64,000 bases of DNA from Actinocorallia sp. API 0066 (lineage in GTDB: Bacteria; Actinomycetota; Actinomycetes; Streptosporangiales; Streptosporangiaceae). The stretch is taken from positions 186,001 through 250,000 of the forward strand of contig NZ_JAJLQY010000005.1 of NCBI RefSeq assembly GCF_020991275.1, written 5' to 3'. The notes under the pieces are model-generated. The model was given only the letters and a program-made list of their open reading frames with translations. It did no database searches and was not told the DNA's origin. Made by a program: the position numbers and the translations under genes. Positions within the stretch are counted from its first letter, which is position 1. Each line of letters begins with the position of its first letter. This document shows positions 3,124 through 18,691 of the stretch, one piece after another.

Positions 3124-4371
3124 TCAATCCCGCGGTCTGTCCACAACCCAGGGATCATTGGGGTCAAGCAAGCGCATGAGGTAGTGCTCGGCGAGCCAGG
3201 CGATCGCATCAACGCAGACGGCGTCACCGAAGCCGGTCAGTGCCTGGTTCTTACGCAAATCGTTCAAGCGGTAGTCGCGAGCTCCCATCAGATTGCCGTA
3301 TTCACGCGCAGTCATCCATCGGACTCTGACTCCGTTGCTGCTGGCTTCCACGAGGGCCTGCTTGGATGATCCGCCTCCGGCAGTGCGCAAGCATCCGGCG
3401 ATCTCGTCGGCGCGGATCTCCCACATCGAGACCCTAGGCTCTCCCTTCACTAGCTCTCGAGTCCGCCGGTAGGCGGTTCGATAGGAGATCACCGAGGATT
3501 TCCGCAGGTCGTCAAGCCGCGCCTTCTGTCCCGCCGACAGGGAGCCGAGGAACGCCGCAGTTCTCTTCTCATCCCACCACTGTGGGTCGTCTGGAGCCAG
3601 AGGCTCCACGCAGTCGGCCAGGCCCTCCGTCTTGACGGGGTCGAGTTTCGGTAGTGGGGCGCGGTGTGTCCTCAGCTTCTTGTCGGCGAAGATCGAGCTG
3701 AGCCTCGGCGGACGTAGCACGGTGTCCTCCACCTCGGTGTTTGGCGGTGGCTGCTTGGCGCCGACGACAAATAGCCTCGGTCGGGATTGAGCTACGAAGT
3801 GCCGCGCGTCAATGAAGAGAACATCTGCCGAATAGCCCAGCCGATTGAGCGCTTTGACGGTCTCGACCATGTCCTTGCCTTCGCGGCTGGTCGCTAGGCC
3901 GGTAACGTTCTCCAATACGACAACCGGCGGCCGCTGCTTCTCCTCCATTTGCTGAAGGATCCGATAGAAGTGCCAGAACGTCCCGGTATGCTCGCCTCTC
4001 AAGCCTTCTCGATTCCCTGCCAGGGATACGTCGATGCAGGGGAAAGACGCCCATGCCAGCGAGAGGTCGTTAGGCAAGTGGTCGGCGTTGACCTCTTTGA
4101 TGTCCTTCACAACATAGTGATCTTTTTCGTCCCGGAAGTGGCCTCGGTACATCTGGGCCTTGTCTTCCTCGATGTCGTTGGCCCAGGCGACCTTGAACCC
4201 CACGCGTTCCAAGCCCATCCGCACCAGACCGATGCCAGCGAAAAACTCGGCGACAGCGGGGGCGTCCGCCCGTTCCCCGGCAGCCGCCTCCTCGATCGCC
4301 ACGGCGGCTGCAGCGGCCTCTCCTAGAGTTCCAGAGGCTCGTTCGGGCGCAAGAGTCACGCTAGCGACCAT
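3124..4371 (-). CDS. DNA (cytosine-5) methyltransferase
   Basis: 415 residues, a normal length for an m5C methyltransferase, which transfers methyl from SAM to cytosine in a specific sequence. Motif I FFAGIG at ~43-48 (SAM binding), motif IV with Pro-Cys at ~111-112 (catalytic Cys112), motif VI ENV at ~154-156, motif VIII QSRPRLFVVG at ~195-204, and a C-terminal motif X-like ALTGFGDAVCV. I chose the ATG at 4371 because AAGGTG lies 5 bases upstream; a GTG at 4434 is possible. It is divergent from vsr and the Shedu-type gene, and with them looks like the modification arm of the island. The recognition sequence cannot be read from the gene. Confidence 0.9.
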   Translation of the reverse strand: MVASVTLAPERASGTLGEAAAAAVAIEEAAAGERADAPAVAEFFAGIGLVRMGLERVGFKVAWANDIEEDKAQMYRGHFRDEKDHYVVKDIKEVNADHLPNDLSLAWASFPCIDVSLAGNREGLRGEHTGTFWHFYRILQQMEEKQRPPVVVLENVTGLATSREGKDMVETVKALNRLGYSADVLFIDARHFVAQSRPRLFVVGAKQPPPNTEVEDTVLRPPRLSSIFADKKLRTHRAPLPKLDPVKTEGLADCVEPLAPDDPQWWDEKRTAAFLGSLSAGQKARLDDLRKSSVISYRTAYRRTRELVKGEPRVSMWEIRADEIAGCLRTAGGGSSKQALVEASSNGVRVRWMTAREYGNLMGARDYRLNDLRKNQALTGFGDAVCVDAIAWLAEHYLMRLLDPNDPWVVDRPRD

Positions 4372-4780
4372 AGAACACCTTCCCAAAGGTCCAAACTCCC
4401 TCAACCCGTGTCGGGCCGAAGGTTCGCCGATCACGGCTATCGCTCAACTGTTCTACAACTATCTCCGGGCGTCTATGCTTCCGCCACCTCTAGTCTTCCA
4501 TCCAACACGAACACGTCGAGGCCTGTTTGCCTTACGGGGGCCCGCCTCGCGCGGGGCCCTCCGTCCGAATAGACCCACCCGACCCCCAGACAGGTCTTTT
4601 GTGAGTAACGTCATAGATGCGCCTGAGTGATCGAAGGACTACCAACTGCCACCGAAGCCGAGGTCGTCGGCATCGGCACCATCCCGCTCAAGACCATCAG
4701 TCGGCGATCTTGGATGATCCGAAGTCAGCCCCTTGCCCGATTGATGGTGCCGTTCGCAGGATGGCGGTTAGCATCAGCAC
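4372..4780. promoter_or_regulatory. Divergent intergenic region between methyltransferase and vsr
   Basis: About 410 bases with no convincing gene, between two divergent genes, so it should hold both promoters. The part around 4440-4500 is relatively AT-rich. No clear operator palindrome was found. Confidence 0.4.
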
Positions 4781-5251
4781 ATGGTCGAGTCCTGGGCGAC
4801 GTCTCCGAGTTCTCGTAGGTCCATGCAGGCCAACAAGAGCAGGGACACTAAGCCTGAGCTGGCACTACGTAGAGCCGTCCACGCTCTCGGCTTGCGCTAC
4901 AGAGTGGGAGCCAGGCCACTTCCGGATCTCCGCCGCACGGCCGACATGGTCTTCAGGCCGACCAAGGTCGCAGTGTTCATGGACGGTTGCTTCTGGCACG
5001 GCTGTCCAGAGCACCACAGGCTGGCGAAAGCCAACTCCTCCTACTGGGGAGAGAAGGTCCTAAGAAACTCTGATCGAGACGCCGAGACCGACCGATTGCT
5101 TCGCGAAGCCGGCTGGCTGCCCCTCCGGTTCTGGGAACATGAGCAACCAGATGAAGCCGCCCGCATCATCCAAGGTGCCATCCTCGCCCGCAAAGCGGGA
5201 GGATTGTCGCCACCCGCCGATAGCCTGGCAGAGGATGTCTGCCCTCGCTAG
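4781..5251 (+). CDS. vsr: Very-short-patch repair endonuclease (Vsr)
   Basis: 156 residues. Vsr nicks beside T:G mismatches made by deamination of 5-methylcytosine, so it is the standard partner of an m5C methyltransferase such as the divergent neighbour. Visible: SMQANKSRDTKPELALRRAV near the start, D55 in RRTADMVF (catalytic Asp position of the fold), and DGCFWHGCPEHH at ~69-79 with the conserved His and zinc-binding Cys residues, then WGEKVLRNSDRDAETDRLL and an LRFWEHE strand. The ATG at 4781 begins ~13 residues before the conserved region. Its end overlaps the next gene by 17 bases, suggesting translational coupling. Confidence 0.92.
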   Translation: MVESWATSPSSRRSMQANKSRDTKPELALRRAVHALGLRYRVGARPLPDLRRTADMVFRPTKVAVFMDGCFWHGCPEHHRLAKANSSYWGEKVLRNSDRDAETDRLLREAGWLPLRFWEHEQPDEAARIIQGAILARKAGGLSPPADSLAEDVCPR

Positions 5252-6611
5252 CAGCAGGAGGTTGTTCTTGGTCGAGAAGGTCTCCTTCGAAGTGGAGGAC
5301 CACGTTCACATGGTGGTTGACTCCATGACCGTGAGCGTCGAGTCCTGGTACGAGTCCAAGCGCGACCCCCGAGGAGAAGGCGGGGTCAACGGAAACGTCC
5401 TGGCGGCCGGCCTGTATATGACCGATTTCCTCGCTGAGTATTTTCCCCTCAAAGAAGAGCAATTCCTCACCGAGACCCAGGTCAAAGGGGCGGGCTATCC
5501 AAGGGCCATGAGGATTCTCGGCCAACACGGCGAAACTCGCCCCTTCCTCAAAGAGGGTGGCCGGACTTCGCGGGCGACGCGGAAGCACGCAAAAGAACTC
5601 GCGGATGTCCTCAACAACTCGGGTGCCGAAGCCGACCTCGGTCAGTTGTCACCCAAGGATCGGAAGATCGTCGCCTCGCTCCTACAGCAGTGGTTCGTCG
5701 AGAAGACCTCCATGGACTTCTACAGCCTGCAGTCGGCTGACCCCTCAGGCACTAACATGGAGGCTGCGTCGACAACGCTGTTCCAAGAGGTCCCAGCCCA
5801 AGGCAGCAGGCCCGAGAGCAGTAGCGTCGGTTTTGATCCAATGATGGATGAGCTGTCGCGTAACCCGACTCTGCTGAGCACTTTCTACAGAGAGAATCCG
5901 GATCAGTTGCGCGAGCTGATCACCAATGATGCGACTGGCAAGGACGTCATCGCGGTCGCTCACCGCAGGCAGCAGGTGGAGCGGTTTGAGAAGCTGCTCT
6001 ACGACGATGCCTTCTTCGACCTCGAAAAGAGGGAGGCCCCGCACGGCGCGGAGAGCGTCTGGCAGAAGTACTTCGAGGACAACCCCTGGATTCTGGGTAT
6101 TTCTCTGACCGGACAGCTACTCACGTCCTGGGACGAGGGCCGACTCGAACAGGTGGTGGCCGGGCAATCCGTCGCCGGTGCCGGCAAGCGGGCAGACGCC
6201 CTGATGCGCACGAGCGGCCGGATCCGGTCCCTGGTCTTCGCGGAGATCAAGACACATCGCACCGAGCTTCAGCTAAACGGGCCGTACAGGCCTGGGTGCT
6301 TCGCTCCCTCGAAAGAACTCAGTGGTGGGGTCGCCCAGTCGCAGATGACTGTGTACCAGGCCGTTCGCCAGATCGGAGAGAAGCTCGACGGCCAGGCAGA
6401 GGACGGCAGCAGCGATCCTCTGCAGGACGCCTATCTGATCAGGCCTCGATCGTTCCTCGTCATCGGCACGACCGAGCAGCTGACCGGAGCGGCGGGGGGC
6501 GTCCACACGGAGCGATGGAGATCATTTGAGCTGTACCGGAATCACATCACCCATCCGGAAATAGTCACCTTCGATGAGCTGCTAGCGAAGGCGCGTTGGT
6601 CGATCTCCTAA
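5235..6611 (+). CDS. DUF4928-like region joined to a Shedu-type (DUF4263) nuclease domain
   Basis: 458 residues from ATG 5235, preceded by GGCAGAGG and overlapping vsr by 17 bases. Residues ~53-125 (NGNVLAAGLYMTDFLAEYF, later EGGRTSRATRKHAKELADVL) resemble DUF4928, a domain often beside m5C methyltransferases. Residues ~276-430 match the Shedu/DUF4263 nuclease: VWQKYFEDNPWILG, RADALM at ~319-324, catalytic-type E337-I-K339, YRPGCFAPSKELSGGVAQSQ, then FLVIGTTEQL and a late TFDELLAKA. Shedu proteins are PD-(D/E)xK antiphage nucleases. The likely role is the restriction arm paired with the methyltransferase; that role and the DUF4928 label are inference from memory of the families. Confidence 0.75.
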   Translation: MSALASSRRLFLVEKVSFEVEDHVHMVVDSMTVSVESWYESKRDPRGEGGVNGNVLAAGLYMTDFLAEYFPLKEEQFLTETQVKGAGYPRAMRILGQHGETRPFLKEGGRTSRATRKHAKELADVLNNSGAEADLGQLSPKDRKIVASLLQQWFVEKTSMDFYSLQSADPSGTNMEAASTTLFQEVPAQGSRPESSSVGFDPMMDELSRNPTLLSTFYRENPDQLRELITNDATGKDVIAVAHRRQQVERFEKLLYDDAFFDLEKREAPHGAESVWQKYFEDNPWILGISLTGQLLTSWDEGRLEQVVAGQSVAGAGKRADALMRTSGRIRSLVFAEIKTHRTELQLNGPYRPGCFAPSKELSGGVAQSQMTVYQAVRQIGEKLDGQAEDGSSDPLQDAYLIRPRSFLVIGTTEQLTGAAGGVHTERWRSFELYRNHITHPEIVTFDELLAKARWSIS

Positions 6612-7525
6612 CCGACGCTCTTGATGCCCGGTGTCTTGAAGTCCGGGTCCAGTCTGAGGCCGGAAGGTCCCCACGCAGAATCCGGCGACGTGATCAAGGC
6701 CGACTCCTGCCAGGAGAACGCCCGCGTGTCCGGTGGGACGAGGCACCTAAGCGTCTTGGATGAGACCTGAATCATCTCCTGCACGTGTGAGATGTCGATC
6801 TCTTCGGCGACAAAGGCTGCGCTGGTGAAGACGACTTGGATCAACCGCCATTCGGTGGCGTGCTTCTGGCTCTTCTCGAACTCATTACGGCTCAAATGGA
6901 AGCAACCGCGGGTCTTCGGACCCGCGGCTTTGACTTCAATGCGATCTATCTTCGGCGCTCTCACTTCGATGTCATAGCCGAAAGCATCGGACACCTGTGC
7001 TGCGTGAATCGGCTTCAAGCCCACATATCTCAGCGCTGCGAGCACAAGAAACTCCGCCGCATTGCCGATCCGCTTGCGCAGCTCGTCCTGCCGCGAAGAG
7101 TCGAGCCCGATTCGCACGTTGAGGAGAATTTGATCGAGCTCCGGCTCTAGCCATCTCAATGCGGCGAGATCTTCGGCGGGAATGTACTCGCGCGTGACTC
7201 CCGCCATGGACACGGCAAGAGAGAGCCAGACCGGTGGGTCAGCCGCAAGCAATATTCGAGCCGCGTCACGCAGCGTCGCCGCCGCACCGAGATCGATCAG
7301 TCCAGTCAATTGTGGACCGAGCACAATCCTGCCTGACGAAAACTGGGCAAGCCCACCGGAGATCAGATGCCCTGCGATGAAGTCCAGGTCCATCGAGGAC
7401 GCGAGGCTGGAGCCGTGGGCTCTGGCTGCGTTCGTCCACTGGGCGATGCTATAGCGGGGCGCGAGGACGGCCACGCGGGCGAGTAGAAGCGTGCAGTACG
7501 CCGGGCCGTGTCGGGGCAGCATCAT
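6608..7525 (-). CDS. DUF3883-domain protein (putative PD-(D/E)xK nuclease)
   Basis: 305 residues. The C-terminal half carries a DUF3883-like domain: E158 in a helix (NAAEFLVLAALRYVGL), D185 in GYDIEV, E197-V-K199 in IEVKAAG, then CFHLSRNEFEKSQ and WRLIQVVF. This spacing fits a PD-(D/E)xK nuclease fold. The N-terminal ~150 residues are helical and unassigned. DUF3883 domains recur in defence systems with helicases and methyltransferases. It is the last gene of a tight four-gene minus-strand operon (4 bases after the SNF2 gene), and its stop overlaps the convergent stop of the Shedu-type gene. Confidence 0.75.
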   Translation of the reverse strand: MMLPRHGPAYCTLLLARVAVLAPRYSIAQWTNAARAHGSSLASSMDLDFIAGHLISGGLAQFSSGRIVLGPQLTGLIDLGAAATLRDAARILLAADPPVWLSLAVSMAGVTREYIPAEDLAALRWLEPELDQILLNVRIGLDSSRQDELRKRIGNAAEFLVLAALRYVGLKPIHAAQVSDAFGYDIEVRAPKIDRIEVKAAGPKTRGCFHLSRNEFEKSQKHATEWRLIQVVFTSAAFVAEEIDISHVQEMIQVSSKTLRCLVPPDTRAFSWQESALITSPDSAWGPSGLRLDPDFKTPGIKSVG

Positions 7526-7529
7526 TCAC

Positions 7530-9413
7530 TCACCCGTCGGCAGTCAGCAGCGAGACCATCGCTGAGACGTCGTCGCTACCGACCGCCGAGTCGGATCCGT
7601 CGGTGTCAGGCTCAGGCAACGCGACCTGCACGAGTCCCGGGTCGTCCATCAACTGGGACAACGCGACAATCTTCTCTCGCAACCTCCCCTCGACGGCCTC
7701 GTCGATCGTACCCCGGCTGATCAGGAGCGTGAAGTTGGTGATGGTTCCTTCATTCAGGCCCAGACGATGGATTCGATCTTGGCTCTGCAGGTAGTGGCCC
7801 GCGTTGAAGGTGCGGTCGAGGTAGACAGCGTGGTGACACCAGTGGTGAAGGCTGACGCCTTCACCACAGGCAGCGGGGTTCGCGAGCAGAACGCTGCATT
7901 CAGGGTCGTTACGGAACCGGTCAAGTTCGGCCTCCCTCGTGATCACTCCTGAGGGGGCCCCGTCCTCCGGAGGGACGCCGCCATGAACGATCGCAGGCCG
8001 AAACTCCTCAAGGTGATGGGCCAAGATCTTCAGGTTGCGCACGAACGTCGACCAGACGAGCACCTTCTCGTTTCTGGAAGCGGCCTCGCGCACGATCTCG
8101 GCGACGCGCTGATACTTCCAAGGGGTCTCGTGCTCGCGGTACTGCTGAAGCAGTTGAGCGATGGGCTCGTCGCCTCGCAACTCAAGGGGCGGGTGGACGA
8201 AACCTTGCTGATCGTATTCGTCGGAGCCGGACACCAGTAGCATCGGATTCGTCGCCGCCTCCAGCAGGTACATCATGATCCGCCCAAGCCGATCGAATCG
8301 GCGGCGTTCATCCTTGTCGAGCGCGAACTCACCTCTGTACTTGCCGAGCAGCGCGTCATAGATCGACTGCTGGATCGGACCCAGCGGCTCCGTGACCACG
8401 GTGAAGTCCGTCGGCGGCAATTCCAAGCGGGACTTGGGCGTGCGCACGAAGTAGCGGGAGATCGCCGCACTTGTCGCCTGAAGGACGTCCGGATCTCTGC
8501 CGTCTCGCTCTAGATAGGCGCTCGCAGGGAGGATCTGCTGGTCCTGGCCGGGATAGAGAAAGCGCACCGGAGCGACGAGGTCGTAGGCCCCCTGTGGTGC
8601 CGGTGTTCCTGTGAGCACGTCCCGACGGCTGGCCGCGTAGGCGAGGTCTAGCACTGCCCTTCCGTGCACACCTTGCTCGCCCTTCTTGATCCGGTGTGCC
8701 TCGTCGAGGACTACCTGGGTCGTCCGGAGCGACACAAACTCTCGAATCCGGTCGTAGTCGGAGGCGACGCGGTTGTAATTGGTCAGGAGGATGTCGGTCT
8801 CCTCCGGAATGAAGGCTCTTGGACCGGTGTGCACCGCGACCGAAGGAATTGGTGCCAGGCATACCGCCGAGTCTTCCTTCCATGCCTGGAATGCCGCGAT
8901 CGGAGCCACCACCAGAAGCTGGTCGACCCTGCCCCTGGAACGGTTCAGAGCGAAATTAGCGAGGGCCACTGTGGTCTTTCCAGCACCAGGAACCGAGAAA
9001 TCCGCACCATGTGGAAGCCTCAGGATAGTGGCGAGGTTCTCCAGCTGAAACGGTTTGAGCGTCCTCTTGAAGCCGGCCTCCAGCAGCTCTTTCTCCAGGC
9101 CTTCAGTCGAAAGGCCAGGCGGCGAGGAGATCGCCAGATCGCGAGCCTTTCGATCCTGTGCGAGCGAGCGAAGCTGCTCCTTCAACGTGGGCCCGAACTC
9201 AAACGCCTGCCCGAAGAGCGACCTCACCTCTCTAACCGCGCCGAGCTCCGCCAAAAAGACGTCAGCGCGCACGTCCAGCCTTTGAAGCGATCCTCCGACC
9301 ACTCCGCGGCTCAACGCCTCCTGGAGCCGCGCCCAGGCACCAGTGTTGACGCCCTCACGCTGTTCCAGCATGACGATCGGACGGCCTCGTCGGTAGAGCT
9401 CAGCAAAGATCAA
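7530..9413 (-). CDS. SNF2-family (superfamily 2) DNA helicase/translocase
   Basis: 627 residues. ATP-driven double-stranded DNA translocase core. Walker A VPGAGKTT at ~141-148, motif Ia-like LLVVAPIAAFQAWKE, DEAH box VLDEAH at ~235-240, motif III LTGTPAP; the second RecA lobe holds NEKVLVWSTFVRNL, a VLLANPAACGEGVSLH strand and QSQDRIHRLG (motif VI). The ~110 residues before Walker A are a unique N-terminal region. The start is a TTG directly abutting the stop of the ParB-like gene, so the two are surely cotranscribed. Likely the motor of the defence operon, moving DNA for the nuclease domains encoded nearby. Confidence 0.88.
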   Translation of the reverse strand: MIFAELYRRGRPIVMLEQREGVNTGAWARLQEALSRGVVGGSLQRLDVRADVFLAELGAVREVRSLFGQAFEFGPTLKEQLRSLAQDRKARDLAISSPPGLSTEGLEKELLEAGFKRTLKPFQLENLATILRLPHGADFSVPGAGKTTVALANFALNRSRGRVDQLLVVAPIAAFQAWKEDSAVCLAPIPSVAVHTGPRAFIPEETDILLTNYNRVASDYDRIREFVSLRTTQVVLDEAHRIKKGEQGVHGRAVLDLAYAASRRDVLTGTPAPQGAYDLVAPVRFLYPGQDQQILPASAYLERDGRDPDVLQATSAAISRYFVRTPKSRLELPPTDFTVVTEPLGPIQQSIYDALLGKYRGEFALDKDERRRFDRLGRIMMYLLEAATNPMLLVSGSDEYDQQGFVHPPLELRGDEPIAQLLQQYREHETPWKYQRVAEIVREAASRNEKVLVWSTFVRNLKILAHHLEEFRPAIVHGGVPPEDGAPSGVITREAELDRFRNDPECSVLLANPAACGEGVSLHHWCHHAVYLDRTFNAGHYLQSQDRIHRLGLNEGTITNFTLLISRGTIDEAVEGRLREKIVALSQLMDDPGLVQVALPEPDTDGSDSAVGSDDVSAMVSLLTADG

Positions 9414-10739
9414 CTAGTTCCCCCTGATCCTTTTGATCAGCTTCTCCATCTCGCTGATCTTGTCAAGCAGGTCCTCTTCGGTCCACTCCTTGAACGCCCT
9501 GGCTCTGGGGAGGGTGGAAAGGACCCGACCCAGTTCTGCGATCGCCTTGTCCGCTCGGACAAGGGGGGCGAGCACAGCACCCTGGTCCTTCTGTTCCTCG
9601 GCGGCCTCTTCGGCAGCTGCGGTGACCGCGCTCTTCAAGCTAGCGAGGGCATCCTTGGCCACGACCTTGTCCCCGGACTCCAGGGTGAAGCTCGCCTCCG
9701 GCTTTTTCGTCGCCACGAACCCGAGCATGGAATGGAGCGACGACTGCGGATCGGGCTCTCCCAGAAGGTCGTCGAGTTCATCGCCCCGCCCCTGCCCCTG
9801 CCCCTGCCCCTGCCCAGCGGCTGAAGCCTCGGCCGCGTCTAGGAGGGGCTTGAGCGCGGGATCGTCTTCCAACTCTCGCCGTACGAGGTCGGCGGCGTCT
9901 GGCCGCCGCAGATGCCGCAGGTTCCGATACTCGGCACCGGACAAGATGCCCAAGAAGTACGCCGCCTTGACCGAGTCCGCCTCCTTGATGGGCTTGTTCT
10001 TAATATGCTTAGCCAGCTCATCGAAGGCCGACTCGTTCTCGGTGAAATCGACGTGGAGCCGAGCCCCCTGCGACAATGCGACAAGCTGGTGAACCTGCTG
10101 CAGCTTCTCGAAGAGATCCCTGACCTCGGCGACCTTGCGGTGCATCCGCTTCGCGACCCGGTCCCAATTTTTGCCTTCACGGTTGTACAGATCCTCGATC
10201 AGCAGAGCCTCGTTAACCCACGAGTAATCCTGCTTGAAGTCGCGCGCTACCTGCAGTTCCGCCTCGAGGTAGAGCAGCTCGTCCAGCGTCGCATCCTTGG
10301 GCAGAATCCAGCACGTCACGTACTGGAATTTCAAATGCCCATCCCGATATAGGGAACGAAGCGCGGCGGAACGCCGGTTGCCGTTGATGAGCACGCCTTC
10401 AGCCGTCAAGATTGCCGATTCCTGCTGGCCCCGGGCCAGGAGGTCGGCTTTGAGCGCGTCGAAACCCTCCTGCCGGCTCAGGATTTGGTACTGGGCTTCC
10501 TGTGCTTCAGGACCGAGGGGGTCAAGCTTGAAGAGATCGGGCTGGCCGCTCTCGTGAACCGCGCGCATCTGTTCCGCGCGGGTTCGGTGATTCTCCGTCG
10601 AGAAGCGAACCCAGTTGATGTCGACCTCGACCTGTGGGAGTTCCTTCTCCGTGCGAGGCCAAGCCGTCAGCGGTACCCAGACTCTCTTCTGCTTCCCCTC
10701 AAGCAGGGCGACGCGATCGGGATCATGCGTTGGGAACAA
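9414..10739 (-). CDS. ParB/sulfiredoxin-fold protein of the defence operon
   Basis: 441 residues. The ParB-type core is at ~90-135, with a GVLINGNRRSAALRSL segment (G120, R122-R123) matching the nucleotide-binding GxRR motif of ParB-fold enzymes, followed by a helical DNA-binding-like region (YNREGKNWDRVAKRMHRKVA). Residues ~300-325 contain a (Gly-Gln) repeat linker, and the C-terminus is a charged coiled coil. ParB-fold proteins can act as CTP/ATP switches or nucleases; in DNA-modification islands they are often specificity or control factors. It lies 5 bases after the upstream gene and abuts the SNF2 start. Confidence 0.72.
   Translation of the reverse strand: MFPTHDPDRVALLEGKQKRVWVPLTAWPRTEKELPQVEVDINWVRFSTENHRTRAEQMRAVHESGQPDLFKLDPLGPEAQEAQYQILSRQEGFDALKADLLARGQQESAILTAEGVLINGNRRSAALRSLYRDGHLKFQYVTCWILPKDATLDELLYLEAELQVARDFKQDYSWVNEALLIEDLYNREGKNWDRVAKRMHRKVAEVRDLFEKLQQVHQLVALSQGARLHVDFTENESAFDELAKHIKNKPIKEADSVKAAYFLGILSGAEYRNLRHLRRPDAADLVRRELEDDPALKPLLDAAEASAAGQGQGQGQGRGDELDDLLGEPDPQSSLHSMLGFVATKKPEASFTLESGDKVVAKDALASLKSAVTAAAEEAAEEQKDQGAVLAPLVRADKAIAELGRVLSTLPRARAFKEWTEEDLLDKISEMEKLIKRIRGN
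9787..9815. repeat. Hexanucleotide repeat in the ParB-like gene
   Basis: About four copies of CCCCTG (plus strand), coding for a (Gly-Gln) tract on the minus strand. Six-base units keep frame on expansion or contraction, so the linker length could vary between strains. Confidence 0.8.
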
Positions 10740-10744
10740 AGAGG

Positions 10745-11587
10745 TCAGCTCCTGGAGGTGGTTGTGCGGCCGGGACCGAAGCGTGAAGTGATCGTAGTGC
10801 GGAGAGTTCCCGCACGCAGCTGAAACCCGACATGGCCTGTATAGAGGGGGGCCTGTTCAGGAGAGATCCCGAACGCACCGAGGAGGACTCGCGGGAAGAA
10901 GCGCTGTTGGCTGCCGTCCCAGTTCCAGTCGGTCACGCCATCGGCGCGGTCAGGCATCACGAAGACGCAGGGAGGCGGCGTCGTCACATCATCGAATGTC
11001 ACGGCGTGCTCGATCTTCGGGCAGACCCGCTGGCCGCTCCCGCAGAGATGGTTATGGAAGATCACTCCGTCGAGGGTGTCCGGGTAGTCCCCAAAAAACC
11101 GTTGACGAAGTCGATTAATGCCCTTTGCGACGTGCCCGCCTGGCGAATACCGCATGCTGTCGCAGAGCCACCACAGGTACGTTTCTCGAGCCCATTCAGG
11201 GGCTCGCCACTGGACGCTGCTGTGCTTGCCGTCGGGACAGCCTTTCTGGATCACCGCCACGTCCCCGAAGCCATTGATAGTCAAGCGGTAAATCGTGTCG
11301 TCGCCGTACTTGGGCTGCTCGAGACCGTCGATTACGCCCGCGGCGCGCATGCCCTTGAAGGTGTTGGCGAGGAAAAGCTTCCGATCCGCAACGCTGGCGC
11401 TCATGCTACCTCGTAGGTTCTCGATAGCCGAAGGCAGCGCCGCTGCGAATTCCCCGGTCGTCAGCCCGTACCGGGCTAGGAGAGAATCCTCGCCACTCAG
11501 CTCTCGCATAAGCCGGACAACGGAATCTACGACGTCCTTCGGAGGTGCCCCAGCGTGCCGGCATGGCAAAGACTCCTCGGTGCCCAT
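10745..11587 (-). CDS. Unrecognised protein, first gene of the ParB-SNF2-DUF3883 operon
   Basis: 280 residues from ATG 11587, which has an AGGGG five bases upstream (an in-frame ATG at 11605 is the alternative). I recognise no family. Visible: an N-terminal helical region (~15-85), a mixed region with YRLTINGFGDVAVIQKGCPD, an aromatic segment ARETYLWWLCDSMRYSPGGH, paired Cys/His residues (HNHLCGSGQRVCPKIEH), and a late CVFVMPDRADG strand before FFPRVLLGAFGI. The PD-DG-like spacing and HNH-like HNHLC string hint at a nuclease, but this is only a guess. It leads the tight operon, so a specificity or effector role is plausible. Confidence 0.5.
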   Translation of the reverse strand: MGTEESLPCRHAGAPPKDVVDSVVRLMRELSGEDSLLARYGLTTGEFAAALPSAIENLRGSMSASVADRKLFLANTFKGMRAAGVIDGLEQPKYGDDTIYRLTINGFGDVAVIQKGCPDGKHSSVQWRAPEWARETYLWWLCDSMRYSPGGHVAKGINRLRQRFFGDYPDTLDGVIFHNHLCGSGQRVCPKIEHAVTFDDVTTPPPCVFVMPDRADGVTDWNWDGSQQRFFPRVLLGAFGISPEQAPLYTGHVGFQLRAGTLRTTITSRFGPGRTTTSRS

Positions 11588-12227
11588 GAATACCCCTGCC
11601 TCCATCCGACATGCCTGGACAGCGCTCGTTAACGATCAAGGAGTCGCTCGAGTCCGGCTGGTCGCTCTCAGCTCACAGCTTGACCGCCACCACGATACCG
11701 ACCGCGTCTGACAACTAGCGAGATCGCGCCCATCTGTGATCTTCATCTGCCCGCGGCGATCGCTTACGGCTCAGCCGATCTCCACGACCATCAGGGCCGC
11801 GGGACCCTCGACCGGGTTGCCGTCGTCGGCAGAGGCCGTCACGCCCCCTGCTCCGCCTGTACCAACGCGGATGCGGTCGACCGTCCTGAGGAACCCACGC
11901 CGTCGGGGTGACCTTCAAGCACCCCCGTGACTTCCGACGCCGGGGCATGGGACAGGACCATCGTGAACGTCCGTGACGCGTACCGAGGAACAGGGTTCCA
12001 ACGTATCGCTGCGGATCTTGTTGGGGCTGGCTGAGCGTGTAAGCGAGAACCAGATGCACGGACTCATACAGTCACAGGTGACCAGGATCACCGAGACGTC
12101 AGGGGCGTTCTCTGATGAGGCGGGCAACGACCGCAGCAGGAGACAGCGACCTCCGCCTCGCTCCTGGATTAAGGACAGGATGAGCTTCCCCCGTTTTCAC
12201 AGGCTCGATGCGATCGATGATCGCGTT
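11588..12227. other. Intergenic spacer between defence operon and lanthipeptide-type remnants
   Basis: About 640 bases with no convincing gene. Short open frames on both strands lack family resemblance and ribosome sites. Bases just above 11588 should hold the promoter of the minus-strand defence operon. It may contain an eroded gene end, since the neighbouring cluster is decayed. Confidence 0.4.
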
Positions 12228-13314: not shown

Positions 13315-14113
13315 GGTGCCGCCGTAGGGTCGGGGCCGAAGATGGCGAGCTTGGCGGTGCCGGCGAGTACGGCCTGGGTTCGGTACGGGAGGCCGAGGCG
13401 GTTCCAGGAGAAGACGATGTGGTGGGTGAGGACGTCTCGGAGGCCGCGGCGCAGATGGCCGTCTGCCGCGAGGTCGGCGAAGCGACGTCCGGCGTTGGAG
13501 AGGTCTTCTGCCCAGCTCGCGGCGAGTGTCAGGAAGGCGGATTCCTCGGTCACGGGGGTGATGTCGACGCTCAGAAGGCGCCGTAGTGACTGCTCCAGCG
13601 CGGGGACTCCGCTCCGTGGGCTCGGGTCGGGCTGCGGGCGGTGGTCGACTACTCGGGCAGCCCATACGTCGCCCTGTTCGTACCAGCCGAGGGTCGCGCC
13701 GCGCAGGAGCCCGGTGCCGATCAGGACGGCGAGCTCTCTTCGGTGGTCTTGGTCGGCCGGCCTGGCGAAGGAGGACAGGGCGTGCTTGCTGTCGAGGTGG
13801 AAGAGGTCATCCCAGCGTCGCCCCCGAAGGCGTGGACCTCGGGGTCGTAGACGACCGCGGTCGTGCCGGTGACGAGGCCGTGGTCTTTGAGTTCGTCGAG
13901 TTGTGCGGGTAGCGAGTCGGGCGGGCTGTCAGAGTGCGGCAGGTAGCGGAGGCGCCAGGCGGGCCGCTTGCGGATAAAGAACCAGTGCGAGATCTGTCCG
14001 TGGGACTCTGCGCGGTCGAGTAGCGGAGCTAGGTAGGTGGCGGCGGTTGCTTCGGCCGCTGTCCAGTCTGGAAAAGCGATGTTGAGTTGGCGCCAGGAGT
14101 GATCTTCGGGCAT
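13311..14113 (-). pseudogene. Thiopeptide/lantibiotic-type dehydratase small domain (SpaB_C-like), frameshifted
   Basis: From ATG 14113 the protein reads WRQLNIAFPDWTAAEATAAT, then HWFFIRKRPAWRLRYLPH, the start of a thiopeptide-type bacteriocin biosynthesis (SpaB_C) domain, and VYDPEVHAFGGDAG. Near 13812 the frame slips; the next frame continues DDLFHLDSKHALSSFARPAD through LGLPYRTQAVLAGTAKLAIF to the stop at 13311. Such domains perform the elimination step after glutamylation of Ser/Thr in peptide precursors. One missing base at a GGG run explains the break. It sits between a LanC-like fragment and the TPR-like gene, all on one strand. Confidence 0.65.
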
Positions 14114-14130
14114 TGGCGGTCTCCGGGGGT

Positions 14131-14985
14131 TCAGGCGAGCAGCAGCACGGAGTCCCATGCTGAGAGGGGGGCTTGTGCGGTGCCGATGGTGTGGAGGGCG
14201 AGCGCGACTCCGGCGGCTCCGTCGAGGAACTCCGGATCGCCTGAGACGTCCGTGCTCATCTCGATCAGCTGGTCGGTGAGCGTGCCCAGTTCGTGGGCGA
14301 GATCAGGGCTTTAGGCGTCGGAGGCGACCCTCCATGAGACGTGCAGGAGCCCGGCCATCCCGTGGCACAGCCCGGTGCCGGGGAGGCGCAGGAGTTGACC
14401 TGGCTCTCGGAGCGTCCGCAGGAGAGCGTCCTCGGCGTCGCGCTGGCGGGCGAGATCGTGGAGGGCCATTCCGCTGATGCCGTAGCACCAGGACGGGCGG
14501 GGGCGCGAGGACGGGTCGACGGTTCCCCGCTCGTGCTGGGCCAGGTCGATGAATCCGGGCCACCAGGTCAGGGAGGCGTCGTCCTGGCGCCAGCGACCGG
14601 TCCATGAGCAGAGCTGTTGGATCGTCTCTGGGCTTCCCGGTATGAGATGGCCTTCTAGTTCGGCGATGGAGAGAAGGGCGACGACTGCGCCGATGCCGTG
14701 GGCGACGCCGAGGTTGCCGTGCCCGCCGGGGAACTCGGGGGCGGGGTCGCCGTTCGGAGATACCTCTGTCCACCGCGGGGGAAGCTTCGCCGGACCGAGC
14801 AGTGGCTCTGTGAGTCGAACGAGGTAGGTGAGGATGTCTCGAGTGATCGGGTGCTCGGGGTGGTGGCGCAGGTGGTAGATCCCGAGGCTGGTCAGACCTC
14901 GGATGAGGTCGAACTCTTTCATCTCCGGTTGGGCGCTGGCCTTGATGCGGGAATCGGCGTCGGCGAGGCGCGAGCGGGTAGGCGC
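14131..14985 (-). pseudogene. LanC-like lanthionine cyclase, 5'-truncated with an internal stop
   Basis: LanC-like enzymes form thioether rings in peptides using zinc. Visible on the minus strand: RLADADSRIKASAQPEMKEF then DLIRGLTSLGIYHLRH, HGNLGVAHGIGAVVALLSIA, PSWCYGISGMALHDLA (the zinc-binding W-C-Y-G motif) and TGLCHGMAGLLHV (the C-H-G motif). A TAA at ~14311 interrupts the frame, after which the same frame continues EFLDGAAGVALALH to a TGA at 14131. The first ~150 residues of the family are absent: at ~14980 the sequence changes to the end of a VirD4-like gene. Truncation plus a nonsense codon mean it cannot work. Confidence 0.8.
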
Positions 14986-16974
14986 GGGCCTCAGCGAGCA
15001 GATCGGAGATGGTCCCGGGCAGGTTCAGGAAGTTGTGGGCCTCGTCGATGTAGGCGGCACGGTCTCTTCGCTGGTCTTCCGGTATCCGGGCGCGCGGCAG
15101 GACCGACTGCCAGGTGTGGGCGAGTAGGAGCGAGCCGAGCAGACGCGCGGCGTCCTCTCCGAGGACTCCTTTGGGCAAGCGGGCCAGGACCAGGCCGCCC
15201 GAGTCCAGGAGGCGCGCGACGTCGAACGTCGAGGTCCCCCCGGACAGGGCGTCGCGGACGAAGGGCGGAGCAGGACTGCGCGGAGCTTGTTCATGGCCGG
15301 GCCGATCACTGCGGCCCGGGACGACGGGGTCAGGTCGTCGTAGGCGGACCAGAACCCGCTCAGTAGCTCGTCACGGACTCGCCCCACGACGCGCGCCCGG
15401 TAAGGCGTGTCCGTCAACAGCTTGGGGATATCCGCGAGGGTCGCGGCGTCGCCGTGGGCCTGGACGAGGGTGAGGCAGGCCGAGCGCATGAGGTCGTCCA
15501 GCCGCGGGCCCCACGAGGAGGAGAAGCAGCGGCGGAAGATCGTCACGACGGAGTCGACCGCGAAGGCGGTGTCGGGGTCGGCGAGCACGTTGAGGCACGG
15601 AGGCGGCCCGGCCTCGCCAGGATCGAGGATCACCGTTCTGTCCATGACCCGCTCCGGGGCCCGATCGAGGACGTCGTTGATCAGGTCGCCTTTGGGGTCG
15701 ATGACGAGCGCACGTCCGGCGCGGGCGTCGGCGAGGATCAGATTGGCCAGGAAGGTGCTCTTGCCGACGCCGGTCTGCCCGAGGACGTGCAGATGCTGGC
15801 GGGCGCCTGCGACGCCGACTGTGACCGGGCACCGGTGGCCGGTCTCGGCGTCGCCGAGTACCCGGGTGTCCAGCGCGCCTCCGGTCGGCACGGCGGGAGA
15901 AGGGGCGACCGAGCGGGCACCAGCGCGGGAGACGCCGGGAACGGCCGCGTCGTAGGGCAGGTGAGCAAGCACCGCGAGTTCGGGCACCGACAGCAGGAAG
16001 CCCCGGTCAAGACGCCGCTGGTTGAGGCGGGTCCGCTGCCGAAAGCGTCGCATCCGGCGTAGGTACTGGTGGCCCGAGGAGAACAGCGCGAACGTCGACG
16101 CGACCTCGTGCGCTCTCCCCCGGAGCCGCCCTCGGGCGGCCGCCTCGTCGCCCCGCTCAATGCTCACGGCGAATCCGATCTGGACCTCGTAGCGAGGCGA
16201 TGCCGCCTTGGCGAGGATCGCCCGGACCTCGTCGGCGCGTTCCGGGAACTGCCGGGCTAGGTCTCCTGGGCTCGTGTTCGTGGGACGGGGCGTGAACAGG
16301 TTGAAGAGGTGGCCGCGCAAGGTCTGGGTGAGGCTGGTCCGCAGCGCGGCGGCGGCTCGGTTGGCTTTGCGCAGCCGACGGCCCGTGACCGGGCGCGCGA
16401 GCACCTGGACGGTGATCTGCTCACCTGGACGCAGCCCAGCGACCGTGCCGAGGAGCGCCCGCAAGGGATCGCTGCGGAAGTCGGCGCGGAGCGGGAAGTG
16501 GTCTTCACGGGCGAGCCGCATCCCTCCCGACCGGCTGGCGATGGAGGTCCTGACGAGCGGTTCGACGGGGCTGGTGGTGACCGACGCGCCCGGCCACGCC
16601 CACCGGATCGTCTTCTCGACCAGGCCCGGTGGCACGGTGCCGGGCACCCGGACCTGGATGCGGACGCCGGAGGAGTCGGCGACGTGCTCCCAGCCGATCG
16701 GTGGCTGCCCGAGGGAGGCTCGCTTCCACCAGGGCGAGGTGAGCCCGATGAGATGTGACCACCAAGCCGCGGCGCTGTCGGTCTCGACGTGGGGTGGAAC
16801 GGAGATCTCGACCAACCGCGCGCCCTCTGCGAAGCGGACCGCTCTCCACCGGCTGAGGACGAACCGGCCTCCGAGGACCGCGGTCAGCCATGAAGCGGAC
16901 GCGGCGGTGATGAGGGGCCCGTTCGCCGAGGCGAAGGCGAGGACGTCGACGGGCCCGGGGATGAGGAAGCTCAT
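14976..16974 (-). pseudogene. VirD4/HerA-like conjugative ATPase, frameshifted and 3'-truncated
   Basis: From ATG 16974 (overlapping the VirB4 stop as ATGA) it begins with a hydrophobic segment (PGVDVLAFAS-like), then a long DNA-transfer protein region, Walker A HVLGQTGVGKSTFLAN and VIDPKGDLINDVLDRAP (Walker B-like). It slips frame at ~15263 in a C run and continues SGGLVLARLPKGVLGEDAAR then AAYIDEAHNFLNLPGTISDL. At ~14980 the expected C-terminus is replaced by LanC-like coding DNA. It is a DNA-pumping or coupling ATPase for conjugation in actinobacterial elements. Frameshift plus deletion make it a relic. Confidence 0.75.
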
Positions 16975-18691
16975 AGCGGGTCGGCCTCGCCCTCGAAGAG
17001 CTCGGCGGGGTTGGTGGTGGCGAGGGCGTGTTCGTAAGCGGAGGCCACCGAGGAGAACGCGGCGCGTTCTCTGGACCCTCCGCAAACTAGCCCATCGCCC
17101 TGACGGGCCGAGAGCAGGTAGGAGCGTTCTCCCTCGGTGAGGCCGAAGGCTTGGCCGATCGCTTCGATCGCGTGCGGCGCCTGGCGAAGGAGGATCTGGG
17201 TGGCGGCGTTGGCGATGACGGCGCGGCCGAGGTCGGAGCTGAGCAGGTCGGCGGCGTCCTGGGTGACCACGGGAGCCCGGTCCAGTACTTGCGGGCGGAC
17301 TTGGCCAGCCGGGCGAGGAACTTCGCGCCTTCGGCCTCGCGCATGAGCGTCCACGCCTCGTCGACGACGACCAGCCGCCGGCGCCGCTCGGAGGAGTCGG
17401 CGACTCTGCGCCAGATCGCGTCCAGGGCGAGGAGCATCGCGACCGGGCGGGTCTCCTCAGCCAGGTCTCGCAGGGAGAAGACGATGAGGTGGCCTTGGGG
17501 CCTGGTGGTCGTCGGCCCCGCGAACAGCCCCCGGTAGGAGCCGGATGTGTAGGGGGTAAGCCGTGCGGCGAGGTTCTTGGACTCGTCGTCGGCGGCGACC
17601 TCCATCGTCGCGAGATCACGGAGGAGCGGTGCCTCCTTCTTCCAGGTGCGGCGGTCGCTGGTGATCCCGTGGGCGGCGTAGGTGGCCATGACGGCCTTGT
17701 CGAGCGCGGCCTTGGCCGCTGGGTTGAGCGGCTCACCGAGCATGGCCGCGACCAGGGTCTGGATGAACAGGGCCCTTCGGTCGAAGGTGTCGTCTCCCTG
17801 GCCTTCGGGCAGGTCGAACGGGTTGAAGCACACACCGGGCGCCCCGAGCGCGATACGTGTTCCGCCGACGGCTTCGGCCAGGCGGCGGTACTCGCCCTCA
17901 GGGTCCACGACCGCGATCTCGACGCGGTGGTAGAGCAGCCGCAGGATCTCCAGCTTGGTCAGGTATGACTTGCCCGCGCCCGACCGTGCGAGCGTCACGG
18001 AGTTGTAGTTGTGGTGGGCGAACCTGTCCCAGAGCACGACACCCGAGGAGTAGGCGTTGAGGCCCAGCAGAACGGGCGTGTCCGCGAGCTTGGGCCGTAG
18101 GTCCGGCGAGGCGAACGGGAACCCGGCCGAGAGCGCGCTGGTGTCGAAGGTGCGCTGAGCTTTCACGGCGTCGTCAGCCAGGGGAAGCGTGGTCGTCCAA
18201 CCTTGAAGGGCGCGGAACGTCACGGGCTGCGCGTCCAGCAGGAGTGACGCGGCCAACGCGCGCACGTGGTGGGTCTCGGCTTCCAGCGCCTCGGCATCCG
18301 CGGCGTGAACGGTGAGGTAGAGCCCGACCCGGAAGAGACGGCCGTGTCCTCGGGCGAGCGACGCGGCCAGGTCCGCGGTGTCCTCGGTGGCGGCCTCGCT
18401 CGCGAAGTCGGCCGTGCGGGCGCTGGCGTTCACGCTTTCCAGCCGGGCGAGCTGCCGCTTGAGGCGCTGCGCGGCGATCAGGGGCGGGATGGGCTCGATG
18501 TGGAGGGCGACGTCGAGGCGACCCGGGTAGCCGGTGAGCGGTTCCAGCCAGGCCGCGCCGACTTCTCTCGGGTAGCCGGCGATGGCGAAGGAGGCGCACA
18601 CGCTCTCACCGAACTCCAGCATCTGGGCGCCGATCCGCAGCGACGGCTGGGGCAGCGGCCCGGCCTCGTCGGCGACGTACGACGGTTTCAT
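16971..18691 (-). pseudogene. VirB4-like conjugative ATPase, frameshifted near 17275
   Basis: From ATG 18691 (GGAG upstream, overlapping the PrgI stop as ATGA), with an N-terminal VirB4 region, then LARSGAGKSYLTKLEILRLL (Walker A), IAVVDPEGEYRRLAEAVGG, and RRRLVVVDEAWTLMREAEGA (Walker B, DEAW). After SARKYWTG the frame slips near 17275, and the next frame gives VVTQDAADLLSSDLGRAVIA and then an AATQILLRQAP segment to a TGA at 16971. VirB4 powers pilus assembly and substrate transfer in type IV secretion. One missing base explains the break. Confidence 0.85.

Follow-up and report, generated by a model that had tools for sequence, protein, structure and literature searches.

Do the seven genes of a compact DNA modification island in Actinocorallia sp. 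API 0066 form one defence system, and what does a four-gene operon that includes a ParB-like protein and a SNF2-family ATPase add to a DNA methyltransferase and its restriction partner? The island occupies positions 3124 to 11605 of the 64,000-nucleotide stretch of contig NZ_JAJLQY010000005.1 analysed here (positions 186,001 to 250,000; hereafter the window), within a host assembly of 7.0 Mb in 44 contigs. Our comparisons indicate that the conserved unit is a 5-methylcytosine (m5C) methyltransferase together with the four-gene core, usually with a Vsr mismatch endonuclease, and not seven fixed genes. The reading we prefer, to which we assign a probability of roughly one half, is that the island is a type II restriction-modification (R-M) system with a second, ATP-dependent restriction arm protected by the same methyltransferase. 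Central to this reading is the first gene of the core (g7), which descends from a type II restriction enzyme.

Conservation of the core and its link to the methyltransferase

The core is encoded on the minus strand and comprises g7 (10745..11605), a ParB/KorB/Noc-like protein (9414..10739), a SNF2-family ATPase (7530..9413) and a NOV_C/DUF3883 protein (6608..7525), with intergenic gaps of 5, 0 and 4 bases. It converges, with a 4-base overlap (6608-6611), on the gene in the slot of the restriction (R) protein (5139..6611, plus strand), here a hybrid of a DUF4928 N-terminal part and a Shedu (SduA) nuclease domain. The remaining genes encode Vsr (4781..5251, plus strand; TIGR00632, 117.6 bits against a cut-off of 97.85; Pfam Vsr, E 9.4e-19) and the m5C methyltransferase (3124..4434, minus strand; Pfam DNA_methylase, E 1.9e-38; PADLOC PDLC03243, E 1.2e-136). 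An earlier, sequence-only reading had described seven intact frames in two arms, with operon gaps of 0-5 bases and overlapping convergent stops, and had named families for six of the products; all of this was borne out, the ParB assignment by a fold model and the others by profile matches.

Relatives of the core were sought by tblastn of plasmids and by profile-guided scans of genome contigs, family genomes and viral contigs, and the operon recurs in actinobacteria and proteobacteria at ~34-81% identity per gene. The order g7-ParB-SNF2(-DUF3883) is found in 32 records (the window, L002-L005, L008-L032, L084 and L086; L082 and L083 duplicate the contigs of L008 and L009 and were excluded). Some of these are close copies (L003/L020/L021 and L026/L027), so the number of independent occurrences is lower than 32. 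In 30 of the records the core has an m5C methyltransferase within 10 kb; the other two, L018 and L021, break off at a contig edge inside the core or shortly past it, and on a Kozakia plasmid the methyltransferase was located only upon reading the remainder of the circle. The two arms do occur together elsewhere, a point on which the sequence-only reading had staked its claim in advance, and the core was not seen without a methyltransferase where the flanks were visible. Vsr is present in 26 of the 32 records (missing from L018, L021, L025, L030, L031 and L086) and DUF3883 in 28, with L021, L029 and L032 ending before the DUF3883 position. As background, 60 related actinobacterial genomes (~362 Mb) yielded 35 rows of Vsr matches, spread over 30 genomes, and 87 rows of methyltransferase matches, several per gene, over 35 genomes. 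Chance linkage per 21 kb would be ~0.2% for Vsr and at most ~0.5% for the methyltransferase, a control drawn from actinobacterial genomes only, with none for proteobacteria.

Close relatives of the core occur in 4 of 341 genomes of the host family (own genome included; a fifth match, E 7e-45, is of a distant kind discussed below) and in 1 of 385 and 1 of 321 genomes of two other classes, in each case the centre genome of the sample itself. Among genome contigs, a scan with the window ParB alone gave no relatives and an alignment-based scan did find them; among viral contigs, the ParB alignment found none and the SNF2 alignment found one locus. Ratios of nonsynonymous to synonymous substitution rates (dN/dS) were 0.07-0.22 in 11 of 12 comparisons of six window genes with L008 and L009 (one was not computable, and dS was near saturation), values that point to purifying selection on six of the seven genes. 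The suggestion that selection keeps the genes open therefore stands for these six; the DUF4928-Shedu hybrid gene was not included in the test. Two loci have features of their own: in L028, a Herbaspirillum metagenome-assembled genome, the Vsr-methyltransferase-core set follows immediately downstream of dnaN and gyrB, a location that is unusual for mobile defence genes, and in L003, a Mesorhizobium plasmid, an IS481 transposase gene (13343-14290) lies between SNF2 and DUF3883.

The first gene of the operon and its partners

The sequence-only reading had left g7 as an unknown protein, and it does lack a Pfam family match, but it can now be placed as a type II restriction enzyme paralogue without the catalytic acids. 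The g7 of the window matches the PADLOC REase_II model PDLC03501 (E 3.2e-19), apparently as a relative of that family and not as an active member. L004, L030 and L031 each hold both forms, a full PDLC03501 enzyme beside the methyltransferase (E 2e-137, 2e-120 and 7e-107) and g7 in the core (E 3e-19 in L004 and 2e-21 in L030 against the same model). Eight plasmid loci pair a methyltransferase with a PDLC03501 enzyme and show no core gene over the 6-9 kb seen. Core g7 proteins and enzymes form separate sister clades in the tree, at 18-28% identity. Our data indicate that g7 is a paralogue of a type II restriction enzyme whose partner methyltransferases are of the same subfamily as those beside the core.

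Column counts over 11 enzymes and 31 core g7 copies set the two clades apart at the catalytic motif. Column 94 holds D in all 11 enzymes and V or I in all 31 g7 copies, column 108 holds D or E in 10 of 11 enzymes (A in L031) and I or V in every g7 copy, and column 110 holds K in all 42 sequences. None of the 31 core copies has an acid at either column of the D-x13-(D/E)-x-K motif found in R-slot members; in the window, the place of the motif runs from I105 to K121 (11243..11293, minus strand), with I105 for D, I119 for D/E and K121 retained. Other conserved residues, including KGC.DG, E129 and CG..R.CPK, are largely common to both clades. Since g7 is conserved (dN/dS 0.10 and 0.14), it is not decaying. 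Its loss of cutting seems to us likely but is not certain, because an acid lies within two columns of the lost Asp in 28 of the 31 core copies and the L031 enzyme also has no second acid. The retention of K110, D114 and E129 in core g7 calls for the same caution, as does the g7 structural model, for which Foldseek gave no confident PD-(D/E)XK match (best E 0.041). Profile matches of g7 in the PDB were set aside as not meaningful, the best (E 0.0015) covering ~30 residues of an unrelated human antigen. The longest g7 frame begins at 11605; because relatives begin at the position equivalent to 11587, the true start is probably there.

A distant branch shows a comparable arrangement with a different first gene. 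In 15 distant ParB-SNF2 loci (L033-L042 and L087-L091), the first gene encodes a winged-helix/HNH-like protein. A methyltransferase of another subfamily and Vsr lie nearby in 12 of them; the contigs of L033 and L042 are short, and L091 is a genuine exception as far as could be seen. HNH-like relatives adjoin methyltransferases as apparent R enzymes in L041, L092, L093 and L094 (the L092 and L093 methyltransferases are 47-49% identical to a distant-branch methyltransferase, that of L094 only 25%). The histidine at the HNH position is kept in all four methyltransferase-adjoining enzymes and is missing from all 14 distant core copies. In both branches, the operon starts with a nuclease paralogue that lacks catalytic residues, drawn from two unrelated nuclease families.

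Several distant loci also carry recognisable restriction enzymes. Nine contain NaeI homologues and four contain NgoMIV homologues (L033, L036, L038 and L089, with Pfam checked for L036 and L089), and genes of L036 have PDB matches to both. NaeI and NgoMIV need two sites, and NaeI recognises GCCGGC. The passage of PMC4081073 that bears on these enzymes has NgoMIV cutting G|CCGGC and prints the NaeI site differently. We also weighed whether a helix-turn-helix gene that diverges from the first gene of the distant-branch operon might be a missing R; by eye we judged it a regulator. On the Rhodococcus opacus B4 plasmid pROB02 (L092), a methyltransferase, an HNH enzyme, NaeI and Vsr occur together, with no ParB-SNF2 pair in the listed features; the set adjoins DUF262, HEPN and helicase genes.

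The second core gene is recognised mainly by structure. Its sequence match to ddrB-ParB is weak (E 0.046, below the model cut-off), but its AlphaFold2 model (mean predicted local distance difference test score, pLDDT, 89.3) matched KorB, Noc and ParB in Foldseek with a best E of 4.2e-4 and a probability of 1.00; template modelling (TM) scores by query length were only 0.16-0.32, since one part aligns. The model, together with alignments, indicates a ParB-type N-terminal fold, in which NGNRR stands in place of GERR, the motif of the ParB family. The third gene encodes a SNF2-family ATPase (Pfam SNF2-rel_dom, E 8.5e-15; Helicase_C, E 2.8e-7) with GAGKT, DEAH and QxxDRIHR patterns and PDB profile matches to SNF2/ISWI/Rad54 enzymes. 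The DUF3883 protein (Pfam NOV_C, E 4.8e-8) has a GYDIE ... EVK pattern, conserved in the alignment, like that of a PD-(D/E)XK nuclease. Within its gene lies a perfect hairpin of 22 bases that carries CCGCGG at either end (6906-6927), called terminator-like on both strands.

The R slot, its hybrid and their surroundings

In contrast to the core, the R slot is variable. Among the 30 methyltransferase-bearing records, a recognised R protein is present in 26: GIY-YIG in 15, DUF4928 in 5 (whole enzymes, in L002, L013, L016, L024 and L084), the PDLC03501 enzyme in 3, HNH_2 in 2 and the DUF4928-Shedu hybrid in the window. None was recognised in 4 (L022, L028, L086 and L032, the last a contig of only 4.5 kb). 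The Kozakia GIY-YIG match is weak and adjoins a split PDLC03501 enzyme, L004 has a short GIY-YIG-like piece in addition to its PDLC03501 enzyme, and HNH_2 genes were assigned to the slot by position and PADLOC HNH models. In L022, a 434-amino-acid gene beside Vsr (16577-17881), with no Pfam or PADLOC family, looks by eye like HEPN/ApeA-type proteins.

Despite these differing R types, a recognition-region signature (YRRTR ... GCLRTxxGGSSKQ) is common to all 31 in-frame methyltransferases in an alignment of 27 core-linked sequences and 4 from loci with the PDLC03501 enzyme alone (the L084 and L086 methyltransferases are not in it). This shared signature suggests that these methyltransferases may have one target in common. 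We do not claim CCGCGG as the target, since the GIY-YIG partner, considered as a close relative of Eco29kI, had no match in the PDB at E 0.1; the hexamer counts of the window were uninformative on the target.

The window protein holds the slot that whole DUF4928 enzymes fill in other records, yet only the first part of such an enzyme is present. Its DUF4928 match (Pfam, E 9.3e-29) covers residues 70-198 (5346..5732, plus strand) and profile positions 1-129 of 306 only, and alignment with whole DUF4928 proteins identifies their C-terminal half as the part replaced. In its place is a Shedu-like part (5835..6605, plus strand; PADLOC SduA PDLC00394, E 6.6e-103, residues 233-489; Pfam SduA_C, E 9.7e-27, residues 305-482). 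The frame that opens at 5139 overlaps the 3' end of Vsr, and because of this overlap the true start of the hybrid is probably later. Only the own genome gave a full match among 394 genomes of the class, with 13 others matching only from residue 211 or later, and none of 123 plasmid records covers 80% of the hybrid, the 15 listed matches starting at residues 201-266. The seven-gene set proposed from sequence is therefore real and intact as an island, but it is not a fixed set: its R slot varies, and no second example of its hybrid turned up in the genomes and plasmids searched. The Shedu sensor-domain literature may already include sensors of the DUF4928 type.

The sequence-only reading took much of the surrounding element to be broken; of this, we saw only a transposase piece directly left of the island (986-1774; DDE_Tnp_4, HTH_Tnp_4) and a piece of a LanC-like lanthionine synthetase to its right (14311-14922). 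Outside the window, the same genome contains a second m5C methyltransferase adjoining a Vsr gene (G000:C7:173900-175731).

A proposed second restriction arm and its alternatives

We propose that the methyltransferase would mark host copies of one target sequence and that the R protein, here the DUF4928 recognition part with its Shedu nuclease, would cut unmarked sites. In the second arm, g7, as a former restriction enzyme without catalytic acids, would bind the same unmarked target and hand the DNA to the ParB-like clamp and SNF2 motor; these would form a complex with it and move along the DNA, and the DUF3883 nuclease would cut, restricting phages or plasmids. Where DUF3883 is absent (L016 and most distant cores), another protein, perhaps R or the ParB-like protein, may make the cut. 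Somewhat more tentatively than the two-arm model itself, we advance the idea of an undescribed restriction class, in which a type II enzyme is duplicated and, once no longer catalytic, comes to serve as the methylation-sensitive targeting subunit of a ParB clamp-SNF2 motor-nuclease complex. Such a class would have at least two separate origins in unrelated enzymes, one of them a PDLC03501-type restriction enzyme and the other, in the NaeI/NgoMIV branch, an HNH enzyme.

Several observations weigh against this model. The nuclease step is not fixed, since L016 has no DUF3883 although its flank is visible and most distant cores also do without it. Covariation between methyltransferase and core is moderate (r 0.48-0.62 over all loci) and weaker within groups, and that between methyltransferase and DUF3883 in proteobacteria gave p 0.28. 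A third, more distant group (L006, L007 and L085) has ParB-SNF2-NOV_C without a g7 or HNH first gene and with no methyltransferase in view, placing the motor pair in other settings. Finally, the distant locus L091 belongs to a genome (G012) without any Vsr or methyltransferase match, and its ParB gene runs into the contig end.

The alternative that survives best, though we consider it unlikely, is that g7, the ParB clamp and the SNF2 motor carry out no restriction by themselves and aid the true R protein, for instance by pairing sites, clearing bound proteins or recycling stuck enzyme, with DUF3883 as an optional addition. The high share of methyltransferase-bearing records with a recognised R agrees with such a role, as does L016, which has no DUF3883 but carries DUF4928, and as do the majority of the distant cores, which lack DUF3883 but have the two-site enzymes NaeI or NgoMIV. 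However, the R types are structurally unrelated, so that one helper would have to serve all of them. Furthermore, no R was recognised beside the methyltransferase and core of L028 and L086 or, in the distant branch, of L040 and L087, which favours independent action over a pure helper role. This last argument is tempered by the fact that R absence rests on scans of selected neighbours and that L086 shows only ~4 kb and 2 kb around its core.

It is improbable, in our estimation, that the core instead serves the methyltransferase and Vsr, for instance by regulating from its bound target, by opening DNA so that it can be methylated or repaired, or by killing cells in which methylation is lost. 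A catalytically dead, site-specific DNA-binding protein would make a natural regulator, and the fold match of core gene 2 is to KorB-like ParB-type proteins, which are repressors, but a repressor would need less than four genes that include a SNF2 ATPase and a nuclease motif that seems intact, and many methyltransferase-restriction enzyme pairs manage without the core. Least probable of all is that two unrelated defence systems often share one island: the core genes do co-vary more tightly with one another (r 0.75-0.93; methyltransferase and Vsr, r 0.83) than with the methyltransferase, the order and orientation of the arms vary between loci, and L006, L007 and L085 show no methyltransferase in view, yet the methyltransferase is linked in nearly all core records, g7 descends from a restriction enzyme that partners this methyltransferase subfamily, and the distant branch repeats the arrangement with an HNH enzyme.

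A type II R-M system with a second restriction arm under one methyltransferase, the reading we prefer, has no exact counterpart among the systems compared. PADLOC, NCBIfam and Pfam gave family-level matches only for the seven proteins and no single named system, and no description of the combination was found in the literature searched, outside which most subscription papers lie; the impression from sequence that no named system fits is upheld within this scope. The methyltransferase, Vsr and R slot belong with type II R-M systems that have an m5C methyltransferase and Vsr (PDLC03501-type, GIY-YIG, DUF4928, NaeI or NgoMIV), of which stand-alone pairs exist, whereas the g7-ParB-SNF2-DUF3883 core is extra in the island. 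The nearest known mechanism is that of CglI/NgoAVII, which also combine a methyltransferase, a recognition protein and a helicase-like ATPase; the portions of PMC5737866 and PMC4267653 consulted report that ATP hydrolysis is needed for site-specific cutting and propose translocation along DNA. In those portions, the recognition protein is itself the nuclease and acts with a DEAD-family ATPase, whereas in the island recognition would fall to a separate, apparently dead restriction enzyme that works with a ParB clamp and a SNF2 motor; the nuclease would be a protein of its own, and an additional R is usually present. The seven proteins gave no match to the PLD family, to which the CglI/NgoAVII nuclease belongs, and the island ATPase is of SNF2 type.

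Other defence systems resemble the island in single parts. The C-terminal part of the hybrid is a Shedu nuclease domain, but its N-terminal part comes from DUF4928 and it sits within a methyltransferase-Vsr locus, not as a stand-alone single gene. DISARM, Druantia, Dpd and Zorya share a SNF2-type helicase (DrmD, DpdE, ZorD) or an m5C methyltransferase (DruM) at family level, but their other defining genes are not among the seven. DISARM was rejected on a DrmD score of 26.1 bits (NCBIfam cut-off 610) and a weak, helicase-level DrmA match to the SNF2 protein, with no DrmB or DrmC among the matches shown; the NCBIfam equivalog cut-off for DpdE was far from reached; and for Druantia there was DruM-type similarity only (PDLC00028, E 3.5e-100, weaker than PDLC03243), with no DruE among the matches shown. 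Passages of PMC10853773, PMC12839542 and PMC3710099 show that defence operons repeatedly contain ParB-superfamily proteins, SWI2/SNF2 helicases and DUF3883 nuclease domains. Dnd/Ssp, BREX and HEPN-linked R-M operons share ParB-like or SNF2 parts with the island, but those passages describe no such combination with an m5C methyltransferase, Vsr and a restriction enzyme paralogue. The island is a genuine, conserved and apparently undescribed elaboration of type II R-M.

These data offer one singleton feature and one broader principle. The singleton is the DUF4928-Shedu hybrid, whose domain content suggests that a recognition part derived from a restriction enzyme can direct a Shedu nuclease. The broader principle is the reuse of a dead restriction enzyme as a guide, which, if the model is correct, would provide a route from simple type II systems to ATP-dependent, multi-subunit restriction and would give a ParB-type clamp a role in defence instead of segregation. 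The NaeI/NgoMIV branch would supply relatives with a likely known target, GCCGGC, making the idea directly testable.

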